Below are positions 6,743-23,532 of a stretch of DNA of 64,000 nt, piece after piece (the first letter of the stretch is position 1; every line of letters begins with the position of its first letter). The stretch is from positions 1 through 64,000 of the forward strand of contig JAIETI010000144.1 in the NCBI GenBank assembly GCA_019745365.1, given 5' to 3'. The position numbers and the translations under genes are program-made. Origin of the DNA: Gemmatimonadaceae bacterium (GTDB lineage Bacteria; Gemmatimonadota; Gemmatimonadetes; Gemmatimonadales; Gemmatimonadaceae). The notes under the pieces were generated by a model that searched no databases, was not told where the DNA came from, and was given only the letters and a program-made list of their open reading frames with translations.

Positions 6743-6744
6743 GA

Positions 6745-6750
6745 TAGCTT
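6745..6750 (+). promoter_or_regulatory. -10-like TAGCTT before the TPR-like gene
   Basis: TAGCTT lies 6 nt before ATG 6757. The space between the divergent starts is only 14 nt, so a normal leader cannot fit. A leaderless transcript is the simplest explanation. Confidence 0.3.
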
Positions 6751-6756
6751 CCGGGC

Positions 6757-8587: not shown

Positions 8588-8595
8588 CTAATGGC

Positions 8596-8625
8596 ATTAT
8601 ATTCCCATCGCACGACTGCCGTCAG
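8596..8625 (-). promoter_or_regulatory. Promoter of the desaturase gene (CTGACG-N18-TATAAT)
   Basis: On the minus strand a -35-like CTGACG (8620-8625) is followed after 18 bp by a perfect TATAAT (8596-8601). The hexamer ends 8 nt before the ATG at 8587, so the mRNA is probably leaderless or nearly so. The same AT-rich patch reads TATATT on the plus strand and may also serve the divergent sphingolipid operon. Confidence 0.55.
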
Positions 8626-8663
8626 TCGCGGCCCCGTCCCTTCTCCCTGTCGCCCCCCCAGGC

Positions 8664-11600
8664 GTGACCGATTCCCCACTGAAAATCGATGACGCGAAAC
8701 GAGCGGGGGTGCAGTCCCTCCTCGATGTCCTCGATTTTCGGGCTGGCGACCTCCCCGACGCCGTCGTGTTTCGTGCCCTGCGTGGCGACGGGACGGAGTC
8801 CGGGTCGCTCACGTTCTCGGCGTTGCAAGCGCGAGCCCGGGCCATTGCCGCCGGACTCGCGGACCACGTCCTCCCCGGGGACCGGGTCGTGCTGTTGGTG
8901 CCCCCGGGGCTGGACTACATCGCCGCCTTCTTCGGGTGTCTCTACGCCGGCGCCATCGCGGTACCGGCGTACCCTCCGAATCCCCGCCGTGCCGATCAAC
9001 GGGTCACGCGGATCTTCGAGGATTGTGGGGCGCGCGTGGCGCTCGTGGCCGCCGACTTCCGCGCGCGGCTGGAAGACTGGCTCGCAGTCGCTCCGCGGCT
9101 CGCGCATGTCACGTGGCTCGACGTCGAACGCCTGCGCGACCTCCCGGACGCCGGAGCGCCGTCGATCGCGATTCGCCGCAGTGACCTCGCGATGTTGCAA
9201 TACACCTCTGGCTCCACCGCCGAGCCGCGCGGTGTGATGCTGACGCACGCGAATCTCCTCCACAATCTCGCCGTCATCCATCGCGTCACCGCGCACCGTG
9301 AGGGCGACGCGGCAGTCTTCTGGCTGCCCCCCTTCCATGACATGGGGCTCATCGGGGGGATCCTCGAACCGATCTACGCCGTCGTCCCCACCGTGCTCAT
9401 GGCACCAGCGACGTTCTTGCAGCGCCCGGTCCGCTGGCTGGAGGCCATGAGCCAGTATCGGGCGACGACGTCAGGCGCCCCGAACTTCGCGTACGACCTA
9501 TGCGTGGATCGCATCACACCCGCCGAGTGCGATGGAATCGACCTATCGCGGCTGCGGACGCTGTTCAACGGTGCTGAACCGGTACGGGCGGATGCGATCG
9601 AGCGGTTCGTCCGCGCGTTCACCCCGCTCGGCCTTCGCGATGACGTCTTCGTGCCGTGCTACGGGCTCGCGGAAGCGACGCTGCTGGTCTCGGGAGGACC
9701 TGAGCGGGCGCCGATCAGCGTGGTGCGCGCGGACCGTGCCGCACTCCAGAGCGCGTGGCTGCGCGCGACAGCGGAGTCTGCCGCCGACGATTTGGTCCCG
9801 AGTGGAGCACCTGACCCTGAGGTCACCGTCGCGATCGTGGATCCGGACGCGCTCACGCCGAGCGCGGACGGGCAGATCGGCGAGATCTGGGTCGCGAGCG
9901 AGAGCGTCGCGCAGGGATACTGGAATCGCCCGGGGCTGAGCGAGATGACGTTCGGCGCCTCGCTTCTTGGCTCGCCGCATCGCTGGCTCCGCACCGGCGA
10001 CCTCGGCGTCTTCGTGGGCGGGCGACTGCTCGTCACCGGGCGGCTGAAGGATATGGTGATTCTCGAGGGGCGGAATCACTATCCGCACGACCTCGAGATC
10101 GCGGTACATCGATCGCACGCGGCGATTCGCGCGAACGGCGTGGCCGCCTTCGCGGTCCCGGGCCCTCGACGCGAGCGACTCGTGATCGTCGCCGAGGTCG
10201 CGCGACATCATGCACCGGAGGACGAAGAAGCCATCTTCCGCGCCGCGCGCGCGGCTTTGGCGGAACGCGCAGGCGTCGCGCCAGATACGATCGTGCTCGT
10301 GCGCTCCCACACCCTGCCGCGGACGTCGAGCGGCAAGCTGCAACGACGGGCCACGCGACGGGCATTCCTTGAGAATCAGCTCGTCGAAGTCGCTGCGTGG
10401 CGCGTACCCTCGTCCGATACGCCGACGCTCAGCGAGTCGCTCCTCGCCTTCCTTATAGACTGGATCGTCAGCGAGGGTCCCCGCTCCGACGCGCCGCCGG
10501 ACGCCGCGCGCTCGGTCCGCGACCACGGACTGGACTCCCTCAGCGTCACCCGGCTCGCCGTCGCGCTCGAGGAGCGGCTTGGGCGCCGCGTGACCCCCGC
10601 CGAGCTGTGGCAAGCCGCTGACCTCCGGTCGCTCGCGCGGCAGCTGAGTCAGTCGGGCAACCCGAGTCGGCAAGACGAGGGGGCCCTCCTTCGAACGGAC
10701 TTCGGTCCCCCCGGCCCAGCCTCCACCGAGGTGCACGCCTGGCCCGAGGTGCGCGCACTGCACGAGCGGCTCGACGCCGTGCGCGCGCACGAGGTCGCCC
10801 TGCCCTTCTTCATCCCCCAGGACGGCATCGCCGGGCGCACTGCCAGCGTTCGCGGGCGCACGCTCATTAACTTCGCGGGCTACGACTATCTCGGCTTGAG
10901 CGGAGATCCCCGCGTCGCGTCCGCCGCAACCGCTGCGATCGAGACGTACGGAACCTCCGTCAGTGCCAGCCGACTCGTGGCGGGCGAACGACCCCTGCAC
11001 GCGATTCTGGAACGGGAGATCGCCTCCGTTATTGGCACCGAGGCGGCGCTCACCTTCGTCGGGGGGCATCAGACGAACACGGGCACGATTTCTCATCTTG
11101 TCGGTCCCGACGACGTCGTCCTCTGCGACGAGTTCGTCCACAACAGTGCGATGCAGGGGACGGAGTTCTCGGGTGCTCGGCGGCTCCTCTTTCAGCACAA
11201 TGATTGGCGAGAGCTCGACGCGATATTCCAGCGCGTGCGGCACCAGCATCGCCGCGCGTTGGTCGTGATCGAGGGGGCGTACAGCGCCGACGGCGACATC
11301 CCTGACCTCGCCCGTTTCGTCGATGTGAAGCGGCGCAACCACGCGCTCCTCATGGTCGATGAGGCCCACTCCATCGGCGTGCTCGGCCCGACCGGCCGCG
11401 GCCTCGCGGAGCACGCGGGGGTCGCCGCGACCGATGTGGACATCTGGATGGGCACGCTCAGCAAAGCCTTGGCGAGTTGTGGCGGCTACATCGCCGGCTC
11501 CGCGGCGCTCATCGAGTACCTCCGGTTCACCGCGTCGGCCTTCGTGTACAGTGTGGGACTCGCCCCCGCCAACGCCGGCGCTGCCCTCGCGGCATTGCGC

Positions 11601-11942
11601 ATCCTCCAGGCGGAGCCCGAGCGCGTGCAGCGTCTGCGCGCGCGCGCGGCGCAGCTGGCGGAGGCGCTCCGCGCCGAAGGGTTCGACATCGGGGCGAGCG
11701 CCGGGACGCCGGTCGTTCCGGTGATCCTCGGCGACTCGTTGCGCGCATTCCGCTACGCCGCGGTGCTGCAGGACGCTGGATTCCTCGTCGCCCCCATGGT
11801 GTCACCAGCCGTTCCCGACGCGGCGGCGCGGCTCAGGTTCTTCGTGTCGGCGCTGCACACTGAGGCCGACATCACCTCCGCCGTGGCGGCGGTCGTCGCA
11901 ACGCGGACGCTCGTCGGATCGCCGGCCTCCGCGCGTACATGA
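8664..11942 (+). CDS. Three-domain fusion: fatty acyl-AMP ligase, acyl carrier protein, serine palmitoyltransferase
   Basis: A 1092-residue fusion. Residues 1-590 form a fatty acyl-AMP ligase (FAAL): LQYTSGSTAEPRGVMLTH (P-loop at 181-190), LPPFHDMGLIGG, VPCYGLAEATLLVSGG and the C-terminal Lys558 in SSGKLQRR. Residues 595-665 are a carrier protein with the phosphopantetheine Ser625 in DHGLDSLS. Residues 700-1092 are a PLP-dependent alpha-oxoamine synthase of serine-palmitoyltransferase type, with NFAGYDYLGLSGDP, VDEAHSIGVLG and the Schiff-base Lys934 in GTLSKALASCGGY. The predicted reaction chain is activation of a fatty acid, transfer to the ACP, and condensation with serine to 3-ketosphinganine. 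Separate acyl-ligase, ACP and Spt proteins do this in Caulobacter. The start is GTG 8664; the next gene overlaps by ATGA. Biotin or polyketide roles for the last domain are less likely given the neighbours. Confidence 0.88.
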   Translation: MTDSPLKIDDAKRAGVQSLLDVLDFRAGDLPDAVVFRALRGDGTESGSLTFSALQARARAIAAGLADHVLPGDRVVLLVPPGLDYIAAFFGCLYAGAIAVPAYPPNPRRADQRVTRIFEDCGARVALVAADFRARLEDWLAVAPRLAHVTWLDVERLRDLPDAGAPSIAIRRSDLAMLQYTSGSTAEPRGVMLTHANLLHNLAVIHRVTAHREGDAAVFWLPPFHDMGLIGGILEPIYAVVPTVLMAPATFLQRPVRWLEAMSQYRATTSGAPNFAYDLCVDRITPAECDGIDLSRLRTLFNGAEPVRADAIERFVRAFTPLGLRDDVFVPCYGLAEATLLVSGGPERAPISVVRADRAALQSAWLRATAESAADDLVPSGAPDPEVTVAIVDPDALTPSADGQIGEIWVASESVAQGYWNRPGLSEMTFGASLLGSPHRWLRTGDLGVFVGGRLLVTGRLKDMVILEGRNHYPHDLEIAVHRSHAAIRANGVAAFAVPGPRRERLVIVAEVARHHAPEDEEAIFRAARAALAERAGVAPDTIVLVRSHTLPRTSSGKLQRRATRRAFLENQLVEVAAWRVPSSDTPTLSESLLAFLIDWIVSEGPRSDAPPDAARSVRDHGLDSLSVTRLAVALEERLGRRVTPAELWQAADLRSLARQLSQSGNPSRQDEGALLRTDFGPPGPASTEVHAWPEVRALHERLDAVRAHEVALPFFIPQDGIAGRTASVRGRTLINFAGYDYLGLSGDPRVASAATAAIETYGTSVSASRLVAGERPLHAILEREIASVIGTEAALTFVGGHQTNTGTISHLVGPDDVVLCDEFVHNSAMQGTEFSGARRLLFQHNDWRELDAIFQRVRHQHRRALVVIEGAYSADGDIPDLARFVDVKRRNHALLMVDEAHSIGVLGPTGRGLAEHAGVAATDVDIWMGTLSKALASCGGYIAGSAALIEYLRFTASAFVYSVGLAPANAGAALAALRILQAEPERVQRLRARAAQLAEALRAEGFDIGASAGTPVVPVILGDSLRAFRYAAVLQDAGFLVAPMVSPAVPDAAARLRFFVSALHTEADITSAVAAVVATRTLVGSPASART

Positions 11943-13087
11943 CGCTGGTCGTGCGCGAGGCGCGCTCCCGTGTCGACGAACGCACCTTCATCGCCTTTCC
12001 GTACACGCTGTACGACGCGACACGCTTCCCGAACTGGGTCGCCCCGCTGCGGATGACGGTCGAGGACGCCCTCGACCGCGCGCGCAATCCGTTCTATCGC
12101 GACGCCGACCGTGCCCTCTTCCTCGCGGAGCGCGATGGCTTGGTCGTCGGCCGCATCGCCGCCATCGAGAATCGAGCGGCCAATCGTTTCCGGAGCGACC
12201 ACACGGGGTTCTTCGGCTTCTTCGAGTGCCACGACGACGTCGAGACGGCGCGCGCCTTGTTCGACGCCGCCGGCACCTGGCTGCGCGCCCGCGGTCTCAC
12301 CGAGATGCTCGGCCCCGTGAACCCGAGCACAAACTACGAGTGCGGACTGCTCGTACACGGCTTCGAACAGCGGCCGACGTTTATGACGCCGTGGAACCCG
12401 CCCTACTACGATCCGTTGTGCCATGCCGCGGGACTGACCAAGGCGAAGGACCTCCTCTCGTTCTGGTTCGCCGTCGACGCGCCCGACTTCGATCCTCCCG
12501 AACTCGTGGCCCGTCACGCGGCGCGGGCGACTCGGGGCGCAACCCTCACGTTTCGCGATCTCGATCTCCGCGATTTCGAGCGCGAAGCCGCCCTCCTCTG
12601 GGAGTTGTATAACGCCGCATGGGAGGACAACTGGGGGTTCGTGCCGATGACCCAGGCCGAGTTCCTCCACTCGGCGAAGGGGCTGCGGGCGCTCCTCCGA
12701 CCAGCGTGGTCGTTCGTGGCGTCGATCGACGGCGTCCCGGTCGGATTTATGCTCGCGGTACCCGACTACAACGAGGTCTTGCGGCATCATCGGTCGGGGC
12801 GACTGCTCCCGTTCGCGGTGCCCCACATGCTCTGGCACAAGAACCGAGCGCGGTCCGCTCGCGTGCTCGCACTCGGCGTCCGACGAGAGGCGCGCGCGCG
12901 CAGTCTCCTCCCGCTCTTCACCCACGAGATCATGCGCCGCGGCCGGGCGCGCCATGCGATTGGCGCTGAGGCGTCCTGGCTCTTGGAAGACAATCATCTC
13001 ATCGTGAAGCCGATGCGTACCATGGGCGCGACGGAGCGGATGACGTGGCGCTTATACAGCCGCCCGCTCATCCCGACGACGGCATGA
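11939..13087 (+). CDS. GNAT-type N-acyltransferase, candidate bacterial ceramide synthase
   Basis: A 382-residue protein with two GNAT-like halves. The N-terminal half has FIAFPYTLYDATRFPNWVAPLR followed by FLAERDGLVVGRIAAIEN and an LGPVNPSTNYECG loop. The C-terminal half has FVASIDGVPVGFMLAVPDYNEV, a GNAT beta-strand pattern. Large two-lobed GNAT-like proteins with this N-terminal layout occur in bacterial sphingolipid loci, and the Caulobacter bCerS that N-acylates sphingoid bases belongs to the GNAT superfamily. Position two in this operon, overlapped by ATGA on both sides, supports the role of adding the second acyl chain. The function is inferred from fold and context. Confidence 0.65.
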   Translation: MTLVVREARSRVDERTFIAFPYTLYDATRFPNWVAPLRMTVEDALDRARNPFYRDADRALFLAERDGLVVGRIAAIENRAANRFRSDHTGFFGFFECHDDVETARALFDAAGTWLRARGLTEMLGPVNPSTNYECGLLVHGFEQRPTFMTPWNPPYYDPLCHAAGLTKAKDLLSFWFAVDAPDFDPPELVARHAARATRGATLTFRDLDLRDFEREAALLWELYNAAWEDNWGFVPMTQAEFLHSAKGLRALLRPAWSFVASIDGVPVGFMLAVPDYNEVLRHHRSGRLLPFAVPHMLWHKNRARSARVLALGVRREARARSLLPLFTHEIMRRGRARHAIGAEASWLLEDNHLIVKPMRTMGATERMTWRLYSRPLIPTTA

Positions 13088-14331
13088 CGCGGAGACGCAC
13101 CGTAGTCACCGGGATCGGAGTCCTCTCACCGATCGGGATCGGGCACCAGGCGATGTGGGACGCAGCGATGGCGGGAGCAAGCGGCGTCGCACCCATCACC
13201 CTGTTTGATGCATCGCCTCTCGCGACGCGCTTCGCCGCAGAGGTGAAGGGCTTCGTGCCGGAAGACTTCATGGAACGCAAGCAGGCGCGCCGATTTGATC
13301 GATATCAACAGTTCTCGATGGCGGCTGGCGAACTCGCGATGCGCGACGCAGGGCTCACCGCGGCCCCGGGCGATGGCACGCGCGCCGCCATCGTCGTCGG
13401 TTCGTGCGTCGGTGGCCTTAGCTGCGCGGAGACGGCGGTTCATGAGACGGGACTTCGGGATCCGCGCTCCGTCACCCCGTTCTTCATCCTGAACGTGCTG
13501 GCGAACATGGCCGCGAGCCATCTGTCGATCCGCTTCGGCTTTCGTGGCCCCTGTTGGTCGACAAACTCCGCCTGCGCCACCTCGACGCACTCGCTGGGCG
13601 ACGCGGCGCGCCTCATCGAACGAGGCGATGCGGATGTCGTCCTCGCGGGCGGCGCCGAGGCGCCGATCGGATTCATGTGCATCGCCGGATTCAATGCCAT
13701 CCGGGCACTCTCCACGCGCAACGACGAACCCGCGACCGCCTGCCGTCCGTTCGATGTGACACGCGATGGATTCGTGCTGGGTGAAGGCGCAGCCGTGTTC
13801 GTCCTCGAATCTGCCGAGCACGCGGCGGAGCGCGGCGCGAGGGTACACGCGGAGCTCGCCGGCTATGGCTCGAGCGCCGACGCCTTTCATCTCACGTCGC
13901 CGGCCCCTGAGCACGATGGGGCGCAGCGCTGCATGCGGGCGGCGCTCGCGGACGCCGCGCTTGCGCCCTCAGACATCGACTACATCAACGCGCACGCGAC
14001 CGGCACGCCACAGGGTGATATCGCCGAGGCGACCGCGATCCGTGCGGTGTTCGGCGCGCACGCCGAAAGGATCCCCGTGTCGGCGTCCAAGTCGATGATC
14101 GGTCACCTGACCGGCGCCGCGGGCGCCGCGGAGGCCGCGCTTGCGATCCTCTCGATGACGCACGGGCGATTGCCGCCGACCATCAACCTGACCTCGCAGG
14201 ACCCCGCCGTCGCACTCGACTGTGTACCCAATGTGCCGCGCACCGCGCACCCGTGTGCCGTGCTCACCAACTCGTTCGGCTTTGGCGGCACGAATGCTTC
14301 GCTGGTTTTCCGCGCGCCGCACGAGCGCTGA
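13084..14331 (+). CDS. Beta-ketoacyl-ACP synthase (KAS I/II type)
   Basis: A 415-residue condensing enzyme like FabF/FabB, which extends an acyl-ACP with malonyl-ACP. The catalytic triad is complete: Cys164 in NSACATSTHS, His304 in NAHATGTPQGD and His341 in KSMIGHLTGAAG. The thiolase-fold C-terminus NSFGFGGTNASLVF is also present. The start is ATG 13084 (MTRRRTVVTGIGV), which overlaps the previous stop in ATGA. The operon gives it a likely role in making or elongating an acyl chain for the sphingolipid, possibly on the carrier domain of the upstream fusion, but it could be an ordinary FabF paralogue. No partner such as a ketoreductase of FabG type or a malonyl transferase lies nearby. Confidence 0.9.
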   Translation: MTRRRTVVTGIGVLSPIGIGHQAMWDAAMAGASGVAPITLFDASPLATRFAAEVKGFVPEDFMERKQARRFDRYQQFSMAAGELAMRDAGLTAAPGDGTRAAIVVGSCVGGLSCAETAVHETGLRDPRSVTPFFILNVLANMAASHLSIRFGFRGPCWSTNSACATSTHSLGDAARLIERGDADVVLAGGAEAPIGFMCIAGFNAIRALSTRNDEPATACRPFDVTRDGFVLGEGAAVFVLESAEHAAERGARVHAELAGYGSSADAFHLTSPAPEHDGAQRCMRAALADAALAPSDIDYINAHATGTPQGDIAEATAIRAVFGAHAERIPVSASKSMIGHLTGAAGAAEAALAILSMTHGRLPPTINLTSQDPAVALDCVPNVPRTAHPCAVLTNSFGFGGTNASLVFRAPHER

Positions 14332-14333
14332 GC

Positions 14334-15320
14334 GTGGCTGATCTTCGGCAGATGATCGCGGTCGTCACTGGCGGGTCGGGGTTCATCGGGTCACACCTGA
14401 TCGACGCCCTGCTTGAGACCGGCGCGGTTGTCCGCCAAGTGCTCCATACCCCCGCCGCCGCGGCGGACGTTCGCTCGCGACTCACACAGCTGACGGCGCG
14501 CCTCGATAATCCGAGCGCGCTCCGCGCGTCAGGAGTGCTCGACGGCGTCACGCACGTGTTCCACCTCGCCGGTCGCACGCGTGCGCATCGGGCGCAGGAG
14601 CTCTTCCGTGCGAACGAAGCCACCTCCGCCGCGCTCGCGCGCGCGCTGGCGGCCACCACGCCTCAGGCGCGCCTCATCGCCGTGTCGTCCCTCGCCGCTC
14701 GAGGACCGAGCGCACCGGCGCAGCCTCACCACGGCGCGGACGCACCGATCGAGTCCTACGGCGCGAGCAAGCTCGCAGCCGAGCGAGCCCTGTTCGCCGC
14801 AGGCCTCGGGTCGATCACGATCGTGCGACCGGGCGCCGTGTACGGACCGCGTGATCGCGACCTCCTCGCGGCGTTCCGCACCGCGCGCGCCTCCACCGCG
14901 TGGCACCCCGCGTCGCCGGACCAACCCTTTGCCCTCATCCATGTTGCGGACCTTGTCCGCGCACTGATCCACGTTGCATCCGTCTCCGCGACTGCCACCG
15001 TGCCACTCGAGGTCGCGGGCGCCACCACGACCTGGCGCGCCCTGTACGAGGAGATCGCCCTCGGTGCCGGACGGCGACCGCGACATCGACAAATCCCTGT
15101 GCGAGTCCTGAAAGCGGCGGCGAGCCTCGCGCCGGCGTTCGACCGACTCCGGGGACGCACCTCGCTGCTCACGGCACAGAAACTCGCGCTCGCACTGGCG
15201 CCTGGATGGACGGGAGACGACGCGCCCCTCCGGGCGCTCGGCTGGGCGCCCTGCATTTCGCTCACCGATGGCGTCCGCGACACACTCGCGTGGTATCGAG
15301 CAGCGGGGTGGTGCGAATGA
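14334..15320 (+). CDS. Extended SDR, candidate 3-ketosphinganine/ketoceramide reductase
   Basis: A 328-residue NAD(P)-dependent epimerase/dehydratase-family protein. It shows the extended-SDR nucleotide motif VTGGSGFIGSH, the HLAGRT loop, and the catalytic YGASK (YxxxK) after AVSSLA. FIVRPGAVYGPRD-like text (TIVRPGAVYGPRD) is usual for the family. In Caulobacter the ceramide reductase CerR is an epimerase-like SDR rather than a classical KDSR, so this gene is the best candidate for reducing the 3-keto group. GTG 14334 lies 2 bases after the upstream stop; ATG 14352 (MIAVVTGG) is an alternative start. It overlaps the following glycosyltransferase in ATGA. Confidence 0.72.
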   Translation: MADLRQMIAVVTGGSGFIGSHLIDALLETGAVVRQVLHTPAAAADVRSRLTQLTARLDNPSALRASGVLDGVTHVFHLAGRTRAHRAQELFRANEATSAALARALAATTPQARLIAVSSLAARGPSAPAQPHHGADAPIESYGASKLAAERALFAAGLGSITIVRPGAVYGPRDRDLLAAFRTARASTAWHPASPDQPFALIHVADLVRALIHVASVSATATVPLEVAGATTTWRALYEEIALGAGRRPRHRQIPVRVLKAAASLAPAFDRLRGRTSLLTAQKLALALAPGWTGDDAPLRALGWAPCISLTDGVRDTLAWYRAAGWCE

Positions 15321-16450
15321 CAACGGGATGGCTCTACGTCATCGCTGGATGGGTCACCCTCTACTTCCCGGCGGCCTGGCTCCTCCTGGTCGGCACACGA
15401 CGCCACCGCACGCGTCCGGACGACGGGGATCCGGAGGCCCCATCCGTCTCGGTGGTTGTGAGCGCTCGCAACGAGGCCAAGGACATTCGCCGGTGCATCG
15501 CCTCGCTCGCCGCGCTCGACTATCCCGGGGATCGACTGGAGATCGTGCTCGTCAACGACTTTTCCACGGACGAGACCGGCACCATCTGCGACGAGGCCGC
15601 TGCCGCCGACCCGCGCATCCGAGTGCTCCACTCAGCAGCCCTCCCGCCGAACGGACTCGAGGCGAAGGCGCGCGGCATCGCGCACGGCATCGCCGCGGCA
15701 CGGCACGACTGGATCCTCATCACCGACGCCGATGCGGTCGTGCCGACGCAGTGGGCTCGGCGCATGCTGAGCGGGCTCTCCGACGATGTGGGCATCGTGG
15801 GCGGACCGATCGTGGTTGCCCGCGACCGATGGTGGAGCGCACCCGAGCGTATGTCATGGGCCTTCTTGCAGCTCGTCGCCATCGGCTTTGCAGGATGGGG
15901 TCTTCCGTTCATCGTGTTCGGTCCGAACATGGGGATCAGGCGATCGGCGTATCTCGACGCGGGGGGTCTTGCCGCGAGCCCGGTACGCATCGCCGAGGAT
16001 CTCGGCTTGTTCCTCCTGGCGACGCGCCGAGGGTGGCGTACGGTCTTGCACTACTCTGCGGAGACCGCCGCGACCGTTCACCCCGTCCCGACTGCTGGGC
16101 ATCTCTTCAGTCAGCACCGCCGATGGCTCGGCGGTGGGATCGAAGTCGGATGGCAATACGCCGTCCCCCTCTTCGCCGCGCTATTCTGGGGACTCGGGAT
16201 CGCCGCCTTCCTGGTTGCTGGTTGGGCGCTCTCCCCGTTCTGGTGGACCGTATTCCTGGTTGCCAAACTCGCCACCGACGGTTTGCATCTGCACTGGCAG
16301 GCCCAGCGGCTCGCCCTGCGTGATCACGTCACGCTGCTCGGCGTGCTTCAGCTGTACAAGATCGTGACCCTGGCCTATCTCCCCCTCTCATTCGTCTTCG
16401 ATCGACGCGTGCGGTGGCGTGGAGCGGGCTACGTCGTTCGCTACGACTGA
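15317..16450 (+). CDS. Membrane GT2/GT21-like glycosyltransferase, candidate ceramide glycosyltransferase
   Basis: A 377-residue membrane glycosyltransferase. An N-terminal helix (residues 5-27) precedes a GT-A catalytic domain, and three hydrophobic segments follow at about 282-305, 306-320 and 338-360. The motif series D80 (VNDFS), D137xD139 (ITDADAV), E227-D228 (RIAEDLG) and QHRRW (266-270) is the D,D,D,(Q/R)xxRW pattern of ceramide glucosyltransferase (GT21) and related GT2 enzymes. It is the last gene of the sphingolipid operon and is coupled to the reductase gene by ATGA, so a sugar head group on ceramide is a reasonable prediction. The donor sugar is unknown. Its 3' end overlaps the convergent nucleotidyltransferase by 10 bases. 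Confidence 0.75.
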   Translation: MTTGWLYVIAGWVTLYFPAAWLLLVGTRRHRTRPDDGDPEAPSVSVVVSARNEAKDIRRCIASLAALDYPGDRLEIVLVNDFSTDETGTICDEAAAADPRIRVLHSAALPPNGLEAKARGIAHGIAAARHDWILITDADAVVPTQWARRMLSGLSDDVGIVGGPIVVARDRWWSAPERMSWAFLQLVAIGFAGWGLPFIVFGPNMGIRRSAYLDAGGLAASPVRIAEDLGLFLLATRRGWRTVLHYSAETAATVHPVPTAGHLFSQHRRWLGGGIEVGWQYAVPLFAALFWGLGIAAFLVAGWALSPFWWTVFLVAKLATDGLHLHWQAQRLALRDHVTLLGVLQLYKIVTLAYLPLSFVFDRRVRWRGAGYVVRYD

Positions 16451-17157
16451 GCACCCAAGTCCCTCGCGAGTGCCTCCGCACAAACGCGATCGTCAGGAAC
16501 GTCGATCTCGGTCCACGGCTCCCCCGCGGTGGGGATCACCATCGTCGGTTGAGTCGTGATTGCGCGAGCGAGCGCATCTTCGTAGCCACCCTCGATCTCG
16601 CCACGGGAGATCTGATCGGAGACCTCCCGTCTCAGGCGCTCGACAGACGCCGCCGTGAGCGTCGCGAATCCGACCCATTCCCCTCCCGATTCGCTGAGCG
16701 GCAATGCCGCGCGCTGCAGTCGCCGCACGTGGCCGTCCTCGACGCCTGCCATGTACTCTTCGCCCGTGAAGGCATGGTCGAGGTCCACCAAGAGCGCATC
16801 GCGATCTCCCGGCGCAAGGAGTGCATCCAGCAGCGCGGGAGCGAAGAACACATCGCCATCCATCAGCAGCAATGGCCCCTCATGATCACGTAGCCCCGCC
16901 GCGATCGAGAGGATGCTCCCGTGCTCGAACTCAGCGTTCTCGACCCACTCGACGGTCGGCATGCTCGCGCCCATGGCCGCCCGGACCGTGTCGGACTGAT
17001 GACCGACCACCACACGGATCGTGGAAACACGGTCCCGCAGCGCCGCGTGATACCGTTGCAAGAGCGGCACCCCGCCGATCGGAAGCAGGCACTTGGGAGC
17101 GCGCCAGTCCGGACCAAGCCGTGTGCCGCGCCCAGCGGCAAGGATCAACGCGCGCAT
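16441..17157 (-). CDS. Sugar-1-phosphate or phospho-alcohol nucleotidyltransferase
   Basis: A 238-residue NTP transferase (GT-A-like Rossmann fold). The N-terminus MRALILAAGRGTRLG is the nucleotide-binding signature, with Lys22 in PKCLLPIGG. Asp100-x-Asp102 in LLLMDGDVFF is the metal-binding DxD. It makes an activated NDP- or CDP-compound from a phosphorylated head group. Short proteins of this type include CTP:phosphocholine and CTP:inositol-phosphate cytidylyltransferases, which fits the CDP-alcohol phosphotransferase encoded next door. The exact substrate is not visible. The start at ATG 17157 has a GAGG Shine-Dalgarno about 6 nt upstream. The upstream-extended frame was not accepted. Confidence 0.8.
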   Translation of the reverse strand: MRALILAAGRGTRLGPDWRAPKCLLPIGGVPLLQRYHAALRDRVSTIRVVVGHQSDTVRAAMGASMPTVEWVENAEFEHGSILSIAAGLRDHEGPLLLMDGDVFFAPALLDALLAPGDRDALLVDLDHAFTGEEYMAGVEDGHVRRLQRAALPLSESGGEWVGFATLTAASVERLRREVSDQISRGEIEGGYEDALARAITTQPTMVIPTAGEPWTEIDVPDDRVCAEALARDLGAQS

Positions 17158-17247
17158 CTGTGCCTCATCCGGGTAAGGTCGCGACCATAGCTCCACCGAG
17201 GCAAGCACCCGTGGTAGTGGCTTGAGCACGCCGCTAGTGTTCGGAGC

Positions 17248-17274
17248 ATGCCACCCGCAAGCACCCCGCCGTGA
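17248..17274 (+). CDS. Possible 8-codon leader ORF before the CDP-alcohol phosphotransferase
   Basis: ATG 17248 opens a mini-ORF encoding MPPASTPP whose TGA overlaps the GTG start of the next gene as GTGA. A TAGTGT hexamer lies 7 nt before its ATG. If the transcript is leaderless, ribosomes would enter here and reach the main gene by coupling. This rests only on the arrangement. Confidence 0.3.
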   Translation: MPPASTPP

Positions 17275-18290
17275 CACGTCAGTCGACCGATCAGCAGCCG
17301 CGCGTCGGGAAGTACGCCTTCAGCGATGGCTCACTCGCGCGCCCGATCCTCACGCGCTGGTGGTTCACCACGCTCTTCCGGCTGACCCCGCGGTGGCTCG
17401 CAGCGAACACGATTACGCTCGTCTCCACCGGCGTCCTCCTCTCGGTTGCTGCCCTCGCCATCTCCCCGCCCGCCTCGCCCGGTGTGCACGCGCTCGTAGT
17501 CCTCGCCGCGCTGCAGCTGTATGTCGCGGGGGACCACATCGACGGGATGCAGGCGAAGGCGACCGGCACGGCAGGACCGTTGGGGGATTGGCTTGACCAC
17601 TATTGTGATTACTGGGCCGGCGCGATCCTCATCCTCGGCTACTGGTCGCTCGTCAGTCGGCATGATGAACGCGTGCTCTTCGGCCTGTGCGCCGTGCTCG
17701 GCTTCGGATTCGCGATCACCTTTGCGGAACGCGAAGCGCGTCAGGCGCTACGGTTCACGGCCCTCGGCACCCTCGAAGCGATCGTCCTGTTGAGCGCGGT
17801 GCTCCTCTCCTGGGCATTCGCGCCGACGCGCGCGCTCTGGCAGCGCGAGGCGATCGCGGGATTCGCGTTCGCCACGATTCCCACGGCGATGGGCGCGGGA
17901 ATGGGACTCATGGCGATCATCGAGATCGCTCGGCGACTCGGTGGGATCCCGCCGCGCGTCGCGCTCGTCGCGGCGGAGTTCACCGGCCTCGCGTGGCTCC
18001 TCCCGCAACTCACACATATCTCGGTGTTTGAGCGGTGGCTGCTGATGCCGCTCATCGGCGCTGAGTATGTTGCCCGCGTGATGCGCGGCCACCTTGTACG
18101 GGGCGCCCACACGCGACCCGACCCGACCGGTGTCTTCGGCGTCGCGTTCTTGATCGCCCTCTGGGGGTGGCCGGCGACCCAAGGCGCGGTGCCGCCCGCC
18201 ATGCGGCTGCTCGGGGCCTATCTCTTCATGCGCCTAATGCTCATCCTGCCGGGCGTGCTCCGCTCGTTGCGGGTCCCGAACGCGTCATGA
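17271..18290 (+). CDS. CDP-alcohol phosphatidyltransferase-family enzyme
   Basis: A 339-residue polytopic membrane protein of the CDP-alcohol phosphotransferase family. The catalytic motif is D88xxD91G92xxA95K96...G105xxxD109xxxD113, that is DHIDGMQAKATG followed by PLGDWLDHYCD. The usual Arg after Ala is Lys here. The GPLGDWLDHYCD segment resembles eukaryotic choline/ethanolamine phosphotransferases (PLGELFDHGCD) more than bacterial PgsA or PssA. Enzymes of this group move a phospho-alcohol from a CDP carrier to a lipid hydroxyl, so ceramide or diacylglycerol is a plausible acceptor. The start is GTG 17271. Its 3' end overlaps the opposite-strand gene by 50 bases. Confidence 0.82.
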   Translation: MTRQSTDQQPRVGKYAFSDGSLARPILTRWWFTTLFRLTPRWLAANTITLVSTGVLLSVAALAISPPASPGVHALVVLAALQLYVAGDHIDGMQAKATGTAGPLGDWLDHYCDYWAGAILILGYWSLVSRHDERVLFGLCAVLGFGFAITFAEREARQALRFTALGTLEAIVLLSAVLLSWAFAPTRALWQREAIAGFAFATIPTAMGAGMGLMAIIEIARRLGGIPPRVALVAAEFTGLAWLLPQLTHISVFERWLLMPLIGAEYVARVMRGHLVRGAHTRPDPTGVFGVAFLIALWGWPATQGAVPPAMRLLGAYLFMRLMLILPGVLRSLRVPNAS

Positions 18291-20322
18291 GCAGCGCCGC
18301 GATGGCGAAGAGGAGCGCGTACCCTGCCTGTTCTGCCACGGGCCACACCTCGGCCATCGGTGCGTCGGCGAGCCCGATGACCACCGCGCCGCTCACTCGC
18401 ACGGCGAGATAACTCAACGCCGCCGGGACCAGTGCCGACGAGTGCCACCAGCGCAGGGTCCACACGGTGATGAGGAGGAGAAGCGGTGTCTTGGCCGCGA
18501 TCAACGGCGCGAACCACCCCACGCGGAACTCTACGAGATACGCAGGCACAGTGCGGTACAGGAATCCCCACTCGATCCCGCCCGGTTGCCAGCCTGACGT
18601 GAGCGCAAAGGTCCCACTCACCACCAACGCGGTGACCCACGGATCATCCTGCTCCGGCCGCAGCAGCACCAGCGCGCCGATCAGCAGGTCGGCCCACGCA
18701 TACTGGTACAGCGGTAGTTGATGGGTGAAGGTGAACAGACACCACGCCGAGGCGAGGCCGCAGATGCGGCGCCATGCGGGGACTGTGGTGCGCCACGAGG
18801 CGATGGCGAACGCGCACGTGGCCGCGAGAAACACGATCGGTTCATCCCAGACGCGCAAGCCGATCACCGACACGACGATCGCCACCGCTACCGCGAGCGC
18901 ACGCTGTCGCGCGCCCGAGACGACGGCTGCGAAGACCACGCTCTTGGCGAAGATCCCGACGACATACAGTGTGCCGACCGAGATCGCACCGAGCGGCGCA
19001 CGCGGGATCACGCCGTCGGCGCCCGGCCATTCCCGGCTGAAGAGACAGACTGCGAGCACGCCGAGTGCGATCGACGGGAGCGTCCCACGCGACCATCCAC
19101 GGAGCGCCACGACGATCGCAAGGATCGGGAAGACGGCGAGCGCCGGATCACCGAGCCGCTGCGCCGCCAGCTCGGCGGCGAAGATCATCACGATCATCAT
19201 CTGCGACCCGGCGGCGGGCCCCGTCGTCGGTGCGCGGTTCCCCGCACGCACTGTCTGCCAGCAGCACCCGAGGAACACGCCCAACAGCGCGAGGATCAGC
19301 GCAACGCGCCCGACGGCGCGTTGGGACCCCGGAACCGCCTCGCCGGCCGGCACGCCCGCGCGTAGACGATCACGGAAGAGCACGCTGAGCCGTGAGACGA
19401 GCGCTGGCGACGCGACGACTGGCAATCCCAGGAGATGGGCCAGCACCGGGTGCATCGCGGCGATCGGAAGCGGCGCCGCGACCGCCCCGACCGAGGCGCG
19501 CGGGCCCACAATGATCGCCGCGGTCGGCAAATCGAGCCCGGTCTTATGTTCGCCGCGCGGGTCATGGCCGTGATCACCCATCACGACGAGGTGATCCTCC
19601 GGACGGCGCGCGCTCGCGACGCGCGCCACTACCGAGTCCACCGCCGCGTAGGCAGCGCGATACTCCGCACGCGCGATCCCGTACTCGTGGGCGCGCCAAT
19701 CCGTCGAGTTGATGTGCAGAATGACCAACGACCAAGACGAGTCTCGGTACATGCGCATGGCAAGCGGCTCGCGGGCGGCGTCGCGGGCGTACTGATCGCC
19801 GACCGACTCCGGTGGCACGTGCTGTGACAGTGCACGCCCGAACTGAACGAACGCATCGTCACCGATCACGACCGCATGGCGTCCGTCAGACTCCAACTCA
19901 GTGAAGAGACTCGCCGTCGGTAGTGCACGGACGCGGAAATTCCGGATGACGTTGATGAGTTGTGCGTCTGCTCGCCCAGTGAAGGCCGCTCGCATCGCCG
20001 GGATCGAGAACCCCTCGAACACCGTCTCCACCCGTGCCGAGGCGCCCGATCGGCGGAGCCGCGCGAGCGTCGGCATCGTGACGGAGTCCATCGAGGTCTC
20101 ATAGCGCAGACCATCGAGAATCACCATCAGGACGCGCCCGCGCGCCGGGCCGCCCGCGCGAGTCGCCGTCGCCCTGCCGCCGCCGGGTGACAGAGGCGGG
20201 GGTGAGCGATCGAGCGCAAAGAGAGTGGCGATCGCGCTACCCGCGAGCGCCACCACGGCGACCCAGCGCTGCCGGAGCAGCAAGGTCACGGAGGCGTGGT
20301 CCGGGGGTGGGCGTCTGCGCAT
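18241..20322 (-). CDS. Alkaline phosphatase-superfamily membrane protein resembling GPI ethanolamine-phosphate transferases
   Basis: A 693-residue protein with one N-terminal transmembrane helix (about residues 17-33), a periplasmic alkaline-phosphatase-type domain to about residue 330, and a long polytopic C-terminal half with perhaps ten helices. VLMVILDGLRYETSMDSVTMPTL carries the first metal ligand and the region of the nucleophile; HINSTDWRAHEYG and VVMGDHGHDPRGEH carry further ligands. Domain order and motifs recall the eukaryotic PIG-O/PIG-G/Mcd4 enzymes that add phosphoethanolamine to GPI glycans. It might put a phospho-head group on the glycolipid made by the adjacent genes; this is inference. 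The ATG at 20322 was preferred because the residues before it lack family similarity. Confidence 0.7.
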   Translation of the reverse strand: MRRRPPPDHASVTLLLRQRWVAVVALAGSAIATLFALDRSPPPLSPGGGRATATRAGGPARGRVLMVILDGLRYETSMDSVTMPTLARLRRSGASARVETVFEGFSIPAMRAAFTGRADAQLINVIRNFRVRALPTASLFTELESDGRHAVVIGDDAFVQFGRALSQHVPPESVGDQYARDAAREPLAMRMYRDSSWSLVILHINSTDWRAHEYGIARAEYRAAYAAVDSVVARVASARRPEDHLVVMGDHGHDPRGEHKTGLDLPTAAIIVGPRASVGAVAAPLPIAAMHPVLAHLLGLPVVASPALVSRLSVLFRDRLRAGVPAGEAVPGSQRAVGRVALILALLGVFLGCCWQTVRAGNRAPTTGPAAGSQMMIVMIFAAELAAQRLGDPALAVFPILAIVVALRGWSRGTLPSIALGVLAVCLFSREWPGADGVIPRAPLGAISVGTLYVVGIFAKSVVFAAVVSGARQRALAVAVAIVVSVIGLRVWDEPIVFLAATCAFAIASWRTTVPAWRRICGLASAWCLFTFTHQLPLYQYAWADLLIGALVLLRPEQDDPWVTALVVSGTFALTSGWQPGGIEWGFLYRTVPAYLVEFRVGWFAPLIAAKTPLLLLITVWTLRWWHSSALVPAALSYLAVRVSGAVVIGLADAPMAEVWPVAEQAGYALLFAIAALLMTRSGPATSGARPAG

Positions 20323-20390
20323 CGGGGCACGGGGCGGAAAGGAATCCTGCCGCGCGCGCCCACGCAATCGCCACGCCAGCCTCGATCCGG

Positions 20391-20396
20391 TAGATT
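20391..20396 (+). promoter_or_regulatory. -10-like TAGATT before the 2OG oxygenase gene
   Basis: TAGATT lies 8 nt before ATG 20405 and 5 nt before an in-frame GTG at 20402. It fits the leaderless pattern seen elsewhere here. No good -35 was found. Confidence 0.28.
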
Positions 20397-20404
20397 GCGC
20401 CGTG

Positions 20405-21145
20405 ATGACGCACTCCTCGTCCCTCACCGCTGCGCTCTCCCGCGTCGACCTCCCGTCGGCGAGAGCGACCTTCGTCGAGCAGGACGAGGCTATCTGGTTC
20501 CCCGACCTCTTCGCACCGGAGGAACTCCGTGCGATGATCGACGCGCTCCCAGCGGCGCGCGCTCACGTGCACCGCAGCTACGTGCCGACGAAGCGGAAGG
20601 GCGGCAGCGTCTCCATCACGGCGTTGCAAGCACACACCCCCGCGCTGGTGTCGTGGTATCAAGAGCCGAGCTTCGTCGCGTTCCTCGAAGCGCTCACCGG
20701 CGAACGGCTGCTCCCCTGCCCGCCGAGCGACCCCCACGGCTGCGCCCTCTACGTCTACGAGGAAGCGGGCGACCACATCGCGGGGCACTACGACACCTCG
20801 TTTTATCGTGGCAAACGCTTCACCGTGTTGCTCGGCCTCGTCGACGACTCGAGCACTCGCCTGGGATGCGAGTTCTACACCCGCGACAAGAGGCGGCTGC
20901 GGCGCGTCGAGCGCATTGCCACCACACCCGGCACCCTCGTGGTGTTCAATGGCGATCGGCTCTGGCATTCCGTGAGTCCCCTCGGGGCAAACGAGCTCCG
21001 GATCAGCCTCGCCATGGAGTACGTGACGGACCAACGCATGTCGCGCCTCAACCGCGTTATTTCTGATGTGAAGGACGCCGTCGCGTATTTCGGACTCCGC
21101 GGACTGCTGCGGACCCGGCGCAGCATGCCCCCCGCGCCGCGCTGA
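20405..21145 (+). CDS. 2-oxoglutarate/Fe(II)-dependent oxygenase
   Basis: A 246-residue soluble dioxygenase with the double-stranded beta-helix signature HxD...H...R: His128-Tyr-Asp130 in IAGHYDTSFY, His188 in DRLWHSVSP, and Arg199 in NELRISLAMEY for 2-oxoglutarate. It should hydroxylate its substrate with O2 and 2-oxoglutarate. The closest look is to prolyl-4-hydroxylase-like and other small HxD oxygenases; the substrate is not identifiable. It borders the sphingolipid locus and could hydroxylate an acyl chain or sphingoid base, but nothing in the sequence proves it. The start is ATG 20405 or the in-frame GTG 20402; the upstream frame runs antisense through the neighbouring gene. Confidence 0.8.
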   Translation: MTHSSSLTAALSRVDLPSARATFVEQDEAIWFPDLFAPEELRAMIDALPAARAHVHRSYVPTKRKGGSVSITALQAHTPALVSWYQEPSFVAFLEALTGERLLPCPPSDPHGCALYVYEEAGDHIAGHYDTSFYRGKRFTVLLGLVDDSSTRLGCEFYTRDKRRLRRVERIATTPGTLVVFNGDRLWHSVSPLGANELRISLAMEYVTDQRMSRLNRVISDVKDAVAYFGLRGLLRTRRSMPPAPR

Positions 21146-21213: not shown

Positions 21214-21561
21214 ATGACGCCCGCGATCCGTACCCCTGCCAAGCCCGCCCCCCTCCCCGCGACCGCCACGCTCTTTTCGGCGCTCGCGGACCCGACCCGC
21301 CTCCGGATCCTCGCCCTCCTCCGCGACGGCGAGACCTGCGTCTGTGACTTGCAGCGCCCGCTCGGGATCGCACAACCGCTCCTCTCCTTCCACCTCCGCG
21401 CCCTGCGCGACGCTGGGCTCGTGACGACCCGGCGGGAGGGTCGGTGGGCGTACTACGCGATCGCCCCCGACGCGCTGACAGCCGCGCACGACGCCGTGAC
21501 CGACCTCCTGCGACCCCGCACCCGCGGCCGCTCACTCCCGAACCTCCCATCCTGCTGCTGA
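21214..21561 (+). CDS. arsR: ArsR-family arsenite-responsive repressor
   Basis: A 115-residue winged-helix repressor. The helix-turn-helix segment contains DPTRLRILALL and LLSFHLRALRDAGLV. The metalloid site is ETCVCDL with Cys42 and Cys44, the ELCVCDL-type motif of classical arsenite sensors; two further cysteines (114, 115) end the protein and could be the third ligand. In family members, As(III) binding releases the operator. It is the first gene of an operon with arsM, an arsN-like gene and aqpS, so it should control its own cluster. The start ATG 21214 is directly behind the AT-rich promoter island. Confidence 0.93.
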   Translation: MTPAIRTPAKPAPLPATATLFSALADPTRLRILALLRDGETCVCDLQRPLGIAQPLLSFHLRALRDAGLVTTRREGRWAYYAIAPDALTAAHDAVTDLLRPRTRGRSLPNLPSCC

Positions 21562-21578
21562 CCCACACTGCCACGGCC

Positions 21579-22409
21579 ATGACCACGAACCACATCGAGC
21601 TCCATGATCTCGTCCGCGCCCGTTACGGCGCCATCGCCACCGACGTCGCCGCTGGCACGACCACGAGTGGCTGCTGCGATAGCAGCTGTTGTGGCGGCGG
21701 CGACACTGACCCCATCACCCGCGGCCTTTACTCCGCTGCCGAGACACAGGGGATCCCCGCGGCGGCGGTGCTCGCCTCGCTCGGTTGCGGCAACCCGACC
21801 GCACTCGCCGAACTCGCGCCCGGCGAGGTCGTCCTCGACCTTGGATCGGGAGGGGGCATCGATGTCCTCCTCTCGGCGCAGCGCGTCGGACCCACGGGCA
21901 AGGCGTTCGGCCTCGACATGACCGATGAGATGCTCGCCCTCGCGCGCACGAACGCCGCCGCAGTGGGTGCCACCAATGTGGAGTTCCTGCGCGGCCACAT
22001 CGAAGCGATCCCGCTCCCTGACGCCTCGGTCGACGTGATCATCTCGAACTGCGTCGTGAACCTCGCCGCCGACAAGCACGCGGTCGTGCGCGAGGCGTTT
22101 CGCGTCTTGAAGCCCGGTGGACGTCTCGCAATCAGCGATGTCCTCACGCGGAACGACCCTCCGGCCGCCGTTCGACAGTCGATGGAGCTCTGGGTCGGCT
22201 GCATCGCCGGTGCGCTCGAGGAGCGCGCACTGCTGCAGCTGTTACGCGACGCCGGATTCATCGACGCGAGCATCGACCCGACGCGCGAGTATCGCGCCGA
22301 TGATGCCCGGACCTTTCTCGAAGGGGCCGGGCTCGACGCCTCCGCGTTGGCGCCCGAGATCGACGGCGCCTTCTTCAGCGGGTTCATCCGCGCCACCAAG
22401 CCCGCGTGA
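21579..22409 (+). CDS. arsM: Arsenite S-adenosylmethionine methyltransferase
   Basis: A 276-residue class I methyltransferase of the ArsM type, which methylates As(III) to mono-, di- and trimethyl arsenicals. SAM motif I is VLDLGSGGGIDVLLSA. Three cysteines match the conserved As(III)-binding positions of ArsM: Cys70 in SLGCGNP, Cys158 in ISNCVVNL and Cys208 in WVGCIAG. An extra Cys cluster, SGCCDSSCCGGGD (residues 30-42), sits near the N-terminus as in many bacterial homologues. The start is ATG 21579, 17 bases after the arsR stop. The downstream gene overlaps as GTGA. Confidence 0.95.
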   Translation: MTTNHIELHDLVRARYGAIATDVAAGTTTSGCCDSSCCGGGDTDPITRGLYSAAETQGIPAAAVLASLGCGNPTALAELAPGEVVLDLGSGGGIDVLLSAQRVGPTGKAFGLDMTDEMLALARTNAAAVGATNVEFLRGHIEAIPLPDASVDVIISNCVVNLAADKHAVVREAFRVLKPGGRLAISDVLTRNDPPAAVRQSMELWVGCIAGALEERALLQLLRDAGFIDASIDPTREYRADDARTFLEGAGLDASALAPEIDGAFFSGFIRATKPA

Positions 22410-22873
22410 GCACCATGCCGAGCATCCGCGCCGCACGCGCTGAGGATCGTCCGGCGATCGCCACGCTCCTCACCGAGTCAGCGCTCCCCCTCGCCGGGCT
22501 TCCGGACCCACTCGACGCCTTCGTCGTCGCGGAGGACGAGACCGGCATCGTCGGCGCGATGGGGCTGGAACTCTTCGCGCCGTATGCGCTTCTCCGCTCC
22601 GCCGCGGTGCACCCGCGCCAGCGCGGGAGCGGGCTCGGTACGCGGCTCGCCGAGGCGACCATCGCACTCGCACGATCACGGCAGCTCACGGCGCTCTACC
22701 TGCTCACCACGACGGCCGCCGAGTGGTTTCCTCGCTTCGGATTCCGATCGATCACACGTGCCGAGGTCCCACCGTCGGTGCGCGCGTCGGCGGAGTTCGT
22801 GGAGGCCTGTCCCGCGAGCGCCACGGTGATGCATCTTCTGTTGCATCCCCAAGAGGAGCGCACGGCCCCGTGA
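22406..22873 (+). CDS. GNAT acetyltransferase of arsenic-resistance (ArsN) type
   Basis: A 155-residue single-domain GNAT protein with the acetyl-CoA loop HPRQRGSGLGTRL (Q/RxxGxG/A) and the C-terminal segment LYLLTTTAAEWFPRFGF. The LTTTA..WF.R.GF pattern and the position in an ars operon are characteristic of the ArsN2 group. ArsN1 acetylates the arsenic antibiotic arsinothricin; the substrate of ArsN2-type enzymes is less clear. The GTG 22406 start overlaps the arsM stop (GTGA), with ATG 22415 as an alternative. The aquaporin gene follows through another GTGA. Confidence 0.82.
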   Translation: MSTMPSIRAARAEDRPAIATLLTESALPLAGLPDPLDAFVVAEDETGIVGAMGLELFAPYALLRSAAVHPRQRGSGLGTRLAEATIALARSRQLTALYLLTTTAAEWFPRFGFRSITRAEVPPSVRASAEFVEACPASATVMHLLLHPQEERTAP

Positions 22874-23532
22874 TCCCCCTTCCCCGCCGCCTCGCCGCTG
22901 AGTTCCTTGCCGCGGCCCTCCTGCTCTTCCTCGGGATCGGGAGTGTGTTGGCCAACACGCAGCAACCCGGGTCGCTCGGCCTAGTCGGCGTCGGACTCGC
23001 GTGGGGCGCCGTGGTGGCCGGCCTCGCGTACGCGTTCGGGCCCGTGAGTGGCGCGCACTTCAACCCCGCGGTGACGATCGCGCACGCCGTGATTGGGCGC
23101 TTCCCGCGCGCGGAGGTGCTCCCCTACATCGGAGCGCAGCTCGCGGGAGCGATCGCGGGAACGTGGGCGACGCAGAAGATCTGGGGTCCGCTCAACGGCA
23201 TCGGAACGACCACGACGACGCTCGCGCCCCTCAATGCCGTCGCACTCGAGTTCGCCCTCAGCTTCGCGATCATGGCCGTCATCATGGGCTCCGCCACGGA
23301 CGAGCGAGCGACGTCCGGATTCACCGGGCTCGCCGTCGGCGGCGTGGTGGCCGCCGACGTCATGATCGGCGGCGCGCTCACGGGCGCGTCGATGAACCCG
23401 GCGCGATCATTCGCCCCGGCGCTCGTGACGGGCGTGTGGACATCCCACTGGCTCTACTGGGTCGGTCCGGTCGCGGGGATGGTCAGCGCGGCGTGGATCT
23501 ACGAGCGACTCCGCGCCACCCCACCGCGCTAG
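22870..23532 (+). CDS. aqpS: Aquaglyceroporin/aquaporin channel of the ars operon
   Basis: A 220-residue MIP-family channel with six hydrophobic segments and both NPA half-helices, HFNPAVTIAH and SMNPARSFAPA. In Sinorhizobium and others an ars-operon aquaporin (AqpS) lets arsenite or methylated arsenicals leave the cell passively. Here it replaces the usual ArsB/Acr3 pump, which is absent from the operon. The GTG start 22870 gives VIPLPRRLAAEF and avoids an extension that overlaps the GNAT gene. Its stop shares the palindrome CTAG (23529-23532) with the convergent histidine kinase gene. Confidence 0.9.
   Translation: MIPLPRRLAAEFLAAALLLFLGIGSVLANTQQPGSLGLVGVGLAWGAVVAGLAYAFGPVSGAHFNPAVTIAHAVIGRFPRAEVLPYIGAQLAGAIAGTWATQKIWGPLNGIGTTTTTLAPLNAVALEFALSFAIMAVIMGSATDERATSGFTGLAVGGVVAADVMIGGALTGASMNPARSFAPALVTGVWTSHWLYWVGPVAGMVSAAWIYERLRATPPR

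Follow-up and report, generated by a model that had tools for sequence, protein, structure and literature searches.

What does a bacterium attach to its ceramide when a nucleotidyltransferase (NTP), a CDP-alcohol phosphotransferase and a membrane enzyme reminiscent of PIG-O are encoded immediately beside its ceramide operon? The question is raised by positions 16441-20322 of a 64,000-nucleotide stretch of Gemmatimonadaceae DNA (contig JAIETI010000144.1 of assembly GCA_019745365.1), hereafter the window. The host is a Gemmatimonadota metagenome-assembled genome of 2.83 Mb in 193 contigs, 91% complete and labeled G000; labels such as G110, G115, G173, G298 and G381 likewise denote Gemmatimonadota genomes, and L labels denote loci. 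We propose, with a probability of roughly two in three, that the NTP and the CDP-alcohol enzyme catalyze the two closing reactions of a pathway to a sphingophosphonolipid, which would be ceramide 2-aminoethylphosphonate (CAEP). Gene content, protein family, fold, catalytic motifs, conserved linkage and the presence of genes for 2-aminoethylphosphonate (AEP) synthesis in the genome were established directly.

The nucleotidyltransferase and the CDP-alcohol phosphotransferase

The NTP gene (16441-17157, minus strand) encodes a stand-alone protein of 238 aa belonging to PF12804. When a profile built from five orthologues was searched against the PDB, the best match was the cytidylyltransferase PntC (6PD1; 1.9e-32, 115.9 bits), over the full length, with lesser scores for inositol-1-phosphate cytidylyltransferase (IPCT; 65.7 bits) and the phosphocholine enzyme LicC (51.9 bits). 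The protein carries the GXG(T/S)RX4-8PK motif (GRGTRLGPDWRAPK) with catalytic R13 and K22. The PntC residues taken for comparison (PMC6697681) are Arg15, Lys25, Lys153 and the two glutamates that surround the AEP amine, Glu104 and Glu196; in our alignment R13 corresponds to Arg15, K22 to Lys25, D102 to D106 and E193 to Glu196, and R149 stands at the Lys153 position. Judged by these sequence features, the NTP is most likely, at the family level, a PntC-type CTP:phosphonoalkyl cytidylyltransferase, with AEP as its probable substrate.

The CDP-alcohol phosphotransferase gene (17271-18290, plus strand, GTG start) encodes a class II, CPT1/CEPT1-type enzyme of 339 aa. The generic Pfam model scarcely detects it; PDB searches returned CPT1/CEPT1 as the best matches (1.5e-12 with the single sequence, 1e-17 with a profile), and its AlphaFold model (pLDDT 88.6) matched human CEPT1 (8GYW) in Foldseek with a TM-score of 0.78. 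All four aspartates, both glycines and the alanine of the signature D1xxD2GxxA(R)...GxxxD3xxxD4 are present, and the arginine is replaced by lysine. The metal-binding residues D88, D91, D109 and D113 are conserved in the alignment together with D106-H110, the counterpart of the CHPT1 pair Glu129/His133, which is reported to be shared by the eukaryotic enzymes and lacking in most of those from bacteria (PMC10182977). Within this G(E/D)xxDHxxD element the histidine is invariant and the acidic residue is E or D in 13/13 aligned homologues. Enzymes of the CPT1/CEPT1 class take a lipid as acceptor and a polar, CDP-linked molecule as donor (PMC10156783). The CEPT1-type fold and the catalytic Asp/Glu-His pair therefore indicate that the acceptor should be a lipid, and since the enzyme is paired with a PntC-type NTP and AEP genes, its donor is presumably CMP-AEP.

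The lysine to which the initial annotation drew attention is indeed present in DGMQAK (17541-17558, plus strand; residues 91-96), where Lys96 replaces CHPT1 Arg119, a diphosphate contact. It is no oddity of this gene, as it occurs in 6/6 closest orthologues and in 11 of 13 wider aligned homologues (two myxococcal sequences have arginine), and is thus a subfamily trait. CHPT1 Glu43, a choline contact, was considered as a specificity marker and dropped; a Treponema homologue seems to be without a glutamate there, and the alignment of that helix is uncertain.

Codon bias and conserved homologues support all three genes at the locus, and the coordinates bear out that they are real, alternate in strand and lie beside the ceramide operon (8664-16450, plus strand). 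The overlapping ends described earlier apply to the CDP-alcohol and PIG-O-like genes, which share 50 bp at their 3′ ends. The NTP gene and the CDP-alcohol gene instead diverge from a 113-bp gap (17158-17270), a probable shared promoter region in which a sigma-70 promoter scan found no match above chance, and the 3′ end of the NTP gene overlaps the GT2 glycosyltransferase gene by 10 bp, also tail to tail.

In the pathway that we envisage, phosphoenolpyruvate (PEP) would be converted to AEP by PEP mutase (PepM), phosphonopyruvate decarboxylase (Ppd) and AEP transaminase (PhnW), which are encoded on another contig, and the stand-alone PntC-type NTP would then combine AEP with CTP to give CMP-AEP. 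The membrane enzyme would hold CMP-AEP through two metal ions on D88/D91/D109/D113 and through Lys96, and the D106-H110 pair would deprotonate the C1 hydroxyl of ceramide, which would attack CMP-AEP to yield CAEP and CMP. Ceramide, possibly delta4-desaturated, would be supplied by the adjacent operon, in which FAAL, acyl carrier protein (ACP) and serine palmitoyltransferase (SPT) are fused and a ceramide synthase (CerS) follows. The AEP-forming and activating steps are drawn from gene content and motifs and the acceptor from linkage; what we infer is that AEP is the substrate actually used, that ceramide is the acceptor, and the whole reaction of the third enzyme.

Linkage to phosphonate and ceramide genes

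The CDP-alcohol orthologue is rare, occurring in 6/395 genomes of the phylum, the window genome included; none was found in the 58 closest relatives, and tblastn of the protein against plasmids gave no match. A single cluster in G115, G381, G110 and G298 holds the CDP-alcohol orthologue, the NTP orthologue, PEP mutase (EDKxxxxxNS), phosphonopyruvate decarboxylase and AEP transaminase. The window genome has a PepM-Ppd-PhnW operon on contig C81, in which PepM bears EDKCFPKTNS, an instance of the EDKXXXXXNS motif, and Ppd scores 384.7 bits vs. a cut-off of 312.5. This PepM (L042:7670-9325) is fused to an NTP_transf_3 domain. We considered the fused domain as an AEP activator and rejected it because its catalytic motif is gone: in G000, G110, G115 and G381 alike, GxG(T/S)R..PK has been lost (PK changed to PL, GxGTR gone). 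The same four genomes also have a stand-alone NTP, the motif of which is intact in three, the G381 gene call beginning inside it.

Across the 395 genomes, Ppd was above cut-off in nine, the CDP-alcohol orthologue was present in six and both in five (Fisher 9.6e-9; 3.5e-7 with the window genome removed). These genomes, like the loci counted for linkage, are related by descent, so that the counts lack independence, and the Fisher tests ignore kinship. Since a chance figure for the linkage took in seed loci and an assumed background, we rely on these tests and on five non-seed loci (L059, L062, L069, L078, and L083) from a scan of named genomes, in which AEP genes adjoin more distant CDP-alcohol homologues of Verrucomicrobiota and Myxococcota. 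A phylogenetic tree assigned the window enzyme to a five-member Gemmatimonadota clade (support 100/100) and indicated that the AEP linkage was gained or lost several times over the wider family. The G298 enzyme groups with Verrucomicrobiota (Opitutae). Its AEP cluster (L026/L067) closely matches that of Opitutae locus L059, with 93% identity in PEP mutase and 80% in the transaminase, which suggests horizontal transfer or a mis-binned contig. Pairs of an NTP and an arginine-signature CDP-alcohol enzyme were also observed in Myxococcales (L072-L076 and L082, except L075, which is Treponema), AEP genes being absent from the surrounding 10 kb.

Linkage to ceramide genes was found in the same Gemmatimonadota clade, where 4.2-10.9 kb separate the CDP-alcohol gene from that of ceramide synthase in 5/5 genomes. 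In G381 the genes for ceramide synthase and FabF accompany the AEP genes, SPT being on another contig, and G298 gave no ceramide synthase match. Phosphatidylglycerol, phosphatidylethanolamine (PE) and phosphatidylinositol phosphate are accounted for in the window genome by dedicated PgsA, PssA/Psd and PIP-synthase-like genes, which would leave the CDP-alcohol enzyme free for another product; with these genes in place, inositol and glycerol head groups were set aside. The initial annotation had proposed choline-, ethanolamine-, inositol- or glycerol-phosphate for the head group, whereas the NTP profile and the linkage favor AEP. It had also stated that a conserved association with a different pathway in other genomes would count against it, and such an association emerged in part: the pair is kept with AEP biosynthesis, and with ceramide genes as well in the Gemmatimonadota clade.

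Several observations weigh against CAEP as the product. The NTP has D100 at the position of PntC Glu104 in the AEP amine site, where LicC has Asp, although the Glu196 equivalent E193 is kept. On contig C81, PepM scores 276 bits vs. the TIGR02320 cut-off of 319.55 (four of five clustered homologues are also below it) and PhnW scores 270 bits vs. the NCBIfam cut-off of 361, with the right family scoring best in both cases; moreover, this AEP operon and the NTP/CDP-alcohol pair are on different contigs. The main difficulty comes from G173, a 99% complete genome. There the three genes are arranged as in the window next to a ceramide operon and the NTP pocket residues are conserved, but no PEP mutase was found (best score 58 bits vs. 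a cut-off of 320) and the decarboxylase side is represented only by a split sulfopyruvate/phosphonopyruvate-decarboxylase-like pair. The NTP/CDP-alcohol pair can therefore be retained where AEP is not made, unless G173 imports AEP or its PEP mutase gene escaped assembly, and the G173 enzymes could use phosphoethanolamine or imported AEP. Finally, Verrucomicrobiota CDP-alcohol homologues occur without ceramide genes seen nearby, and the choice of ceramide over diacylglycerol as acceptor is drawn from gene linkage, the two being indistinguishable by sequence.

If G173 is taken at face value, the head group might be phosphoethanolamine, the NTP making CDP-ethanolamine, the product being ceramide phosphoethanolamine and the AEP operon serving another product. 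The fold and signature fit choline/ethanolamine phosphotransferases, and AEP and phosphoethanolamine are almost isosteric. We consider this unlikely, since the NTP profile is PntC-like and not LicC-like, the pair is clustered with AEP genes in four relatives, no member of the choline/ethanolamine kinase family scored above cut-off in six genomes, and the window genome has the AEP pathway and no LicD sink. An AEP head group might also be transferred to diacylglycerol, giving a glycerophosphonolipid. Treponema and Myxococcota homologues, like those of Verrucomicrobiota, are without ceramide genes seen nearby, and the characterized CDP-choline pathway enzyme of T. denticola takes diacylglycerol (PMC8590670). 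This acceptor is nevertheless improbable for the window enzyme, given the 4-11 kb distance to ceramide synthase throughout its well-supported clade and the arrangement in G381, where it is ceramide synthase and FabF, not SPT, that adjoin the AEP genes.

A ceramide phosphoglycerate like that of Caulobacter would require the NTP to be a CpgD-type CTP:phosphoglycerate cytidylyltransferase, and the Caulobacter set, in which the nucleotidyltransferase CpgD, the CDP-alcohol-type CC_1159 and the phosphoesterase CC_1158 occur with ceramide genes, provides a precedent (PMC12275187, PMC11324152). However, T. maritima 4JD0, which CpgD resembles and which stands in for it here, scored 34 bits with the NTP profile vs. 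116 for PntC, and the linkage runs to AEP genes, making this explanation very improbable. CAEP synthesis by the NTP and the CDP-alcohol enzyme is thus the reading that we prefer.

The third enzyme and neighboring genes

The third gene (18241-20322, minus strand) encodes a 693-aa protein with an NPP-like extracytoplasmic domain (PF01663, Phosphodiest) and a multi-TM C-terminus, in which many helices are predicted after that domain. The metal ligands D70, D208, H212, D250, H251 and H259 are invariant and the S/T106 nucleophile position is conserved in 8/8 homologues. No PIG-O, PIG-N or PIG-G family model or structure was matched in Pfam and fold searches, and phmmer against the PDB gave no match. 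Foldseek returned NPP, PbgA, ENPP6 and ENPP7, mainly phosphodiesterases, for a low-confidence model that we used for superfamily assignment only because of its pLDDT of 64. The earlier term "PIG-O-like" consequently holds at the level of the superfamily, with PF01663 and the metal ligands behind it, and not for PIG-O or PIG-N themselves. From these features the protein is inferred to be a membrane-anchored enzyme of the alkaline-phosphatase superfamily, a phosphotransferase or phosphodiesterase acting on a sphingolipid or glycolipid.

The enzyme was found in five of the six genomes with a CDP-alcohol gene, a statistical link, and its gene directly adjoins a CDP-alcohol homologue in Opitutaceae L064. 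It usually adjoins 2-oxoglutarate (2OG) oxygenase and ceramide/GT2 genes, and in two incomplete genomes (83% and 87%) it occurs with ceramide-type genes but no CDP-alcohol gene. Of the three-gene head-group module envisaged by the initial annotation, the cytidylyltransferase/CDP-alcohol pair for ceramide was upheld, and the third gene is statistically linked to it. The protein probably faces the periplasm and may transfer a phospho- or phosphonoethanolamine unit between CAEP (or PE) and GT2-glycosylated ceramide, or may hydrolyze such a lipid; as a conjecture, it would serve in an optional lipid modification beyond the inner leaflet. PIG-O and EptA use PE as donor. A possibility compatible with CAEP synthesis, which we hold at somewhat below even odds, is that a finished lipid (CAEP or PE) is the donor with which the third enzyme decorates glycosylated ceramide. 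The superfamily metal ligands and Ser/Thr nucleophile position, the usual proximity to ceramide/GT2 genes and the association with the CDP-alcohol gene are consistent with such a transfer, whereas the predominance of phosphodiesterases (NPP, ENPP6, ENPP7) among the structural neighbors of the low-confidence model and the two genomes that have the enzyme without the CDP-alcohol gene argue against it.

A 2OG-Fe(II) oxygenase of the HalD/BesD neighborhood is encoded next to the third enzyme (20405-21145, plus strand; PF23169/PF13640), and such a gene also adjoins the PIG-O-like gene in G115, G243, G277 and G381. Its HxD motif (H128-Y-D) marks it as a hydroxylase rather than a halogenase type. Either the AEP head group or ceramide might be its substrate, the former being suggested by the hydroxylated head group of the Bacteriovorax stolpii lipid discussed below. 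A more extended scheme, likewise at somewhat below even odds, can be offered tentatively: the lysine-signature CPT/EPT-type enzyme would use CMP-AEP and ceramide, after which the head group would be transferred or hydroxylated in the periplasm by the third enzyme together with the oxygenase, giving Gemmatimonadota a phosphonate sphingolipid or glycosphingolipid coat.

The ceramide operon begins with the FAAL-ACP-SPT fusion (8664-11942, plus strand; PF00501, PF00550, and PF00155, with NCBIfam FAAL and SPT models). It continues on the same strand with a putative bacterial CerS, GNAT-like (11939-13087; weak PF00583), which is named from its cluster position and whose copies in clustered relatives are 61-66% identical; beta-ketoacyl-ACP synthase II (FabF; 13084-14331; TIGR03150 above cut-off); an SDR/epimerase-family reductase (14352-15320; PF01370); and a PgaC/HpnI-like GT2 membrane glycosyltransferase (15317-16450; PF00535, with TIGR03937/TIGR03472 under cut-off). 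Upstream, on the minus strand, are a sphingolipid delta4-desaturase-type fatty acid desaturase (7511-8587; PF08557 Lipid_DES and PF00487) and a sulfatase/LtaS-type membrane protein of the alkaline-phosphatase superfamily (4784-6742; PF00884). The latter gene type recurs beside the NTP gene in G115, the PIG-O-like gene in G381 and the CDP-alcohol gene in Opitutaceae L064. Farther downstream, 21214-23532 contains an apparent arsenic operon with an ArsR-type regulator, an ArsM-type methyltransferase, a small GNAT protein and an aquaporin.

Comparison with known systems

PntC of Treponema denticola (Tde1415, PDB 6PD1/6PD2; Rice et al., 2019, PMC6697681) shares with the window NTP the NTP_transf_3 fold and the GxG(T/S)R..PK motif, and both families are genetically linked with PEP mutase, Ppd and AEP transaminase. 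Unlike PntC, which is fused to a transaminase, the window protein is stand-alone, has D100 for Glu104 and R149 for Lys153, and sits with ceramide genes, apart from the AEP operon in its genome. The CDP-alcohol enzyme resembles eukaryotic CHPT1/CEPT1 in fold, CDP-binding signature, (E/D)xxDH pair and the class of polar donor and lipid acceptor, and differs in its signature lysine and in its presumed substrates, CMP-AEP and ceramide. The CPT of the bacterial CDP-choline pathway in T. denticola (PMC8590670) belongs to the same class, a likeness that we judged through CHPT1/CEPT1 and one T. putidum homologue rather than through the T. denticola CPT itself.

For its ceramide head group, Caulobacter uses an arrangement like that of the window, in which the ceramide phosphoglycerate (CPG/CPG2) system combines a cytidylyltransferase (CpgD), a CDP-alcohol-type enzyme (CC_1159) and a phosphoesterase (CC_1158). 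It differs in that its head group is phosphoglycerate, it starts with the ceramide kinase CpgB, and it has no AEP linkage; among the genes read at 4784-21145 none is annotated as CpgB or CpgC, although no sequence search for either was made.

Sphingophosphonolipids are known chemically from molluscs, cnidarians, Trypanosoma cruzi and Bacteriovorax stolpii. Our limited literature search found no report of enzymes that attach AEP to ceramide, and the steps beyond PntC, which yields CMP-AEP, were described as unknown in 2019. The two-gene candidate beside a ceramide operon opens both of these questions to testing. It would provide candidate attachment genes for a bacterial lipid class hitherto known from its chemistry. 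If the proposal is correct, it would add a C-P-bonded lipid to a widespread, little-cultured phylum. The named-genome scan, which did not include a search aimed at the B. stolpii genome, yielded 60 confirmed loci, none of them with a homologue from B. stolpii. The sphingophosphonolipid of Bacteriovorax (Bdellovibrio) stolpii is cited in PMC4642753, PMC6148460 and PMC5648825, and its head group is 1-hydroxy-2-aminoethylphosphonate (Watanabe, 2001, cited in PMC4642753; also PMC6148460). The product of the window pathway would be of the same class, ceramide with a C-P-bonded aminoethyl head group, to which the 2OG oxygenase could add the hydroxyl. The B. stolpii lipid, for its part, is known by its chemistry.

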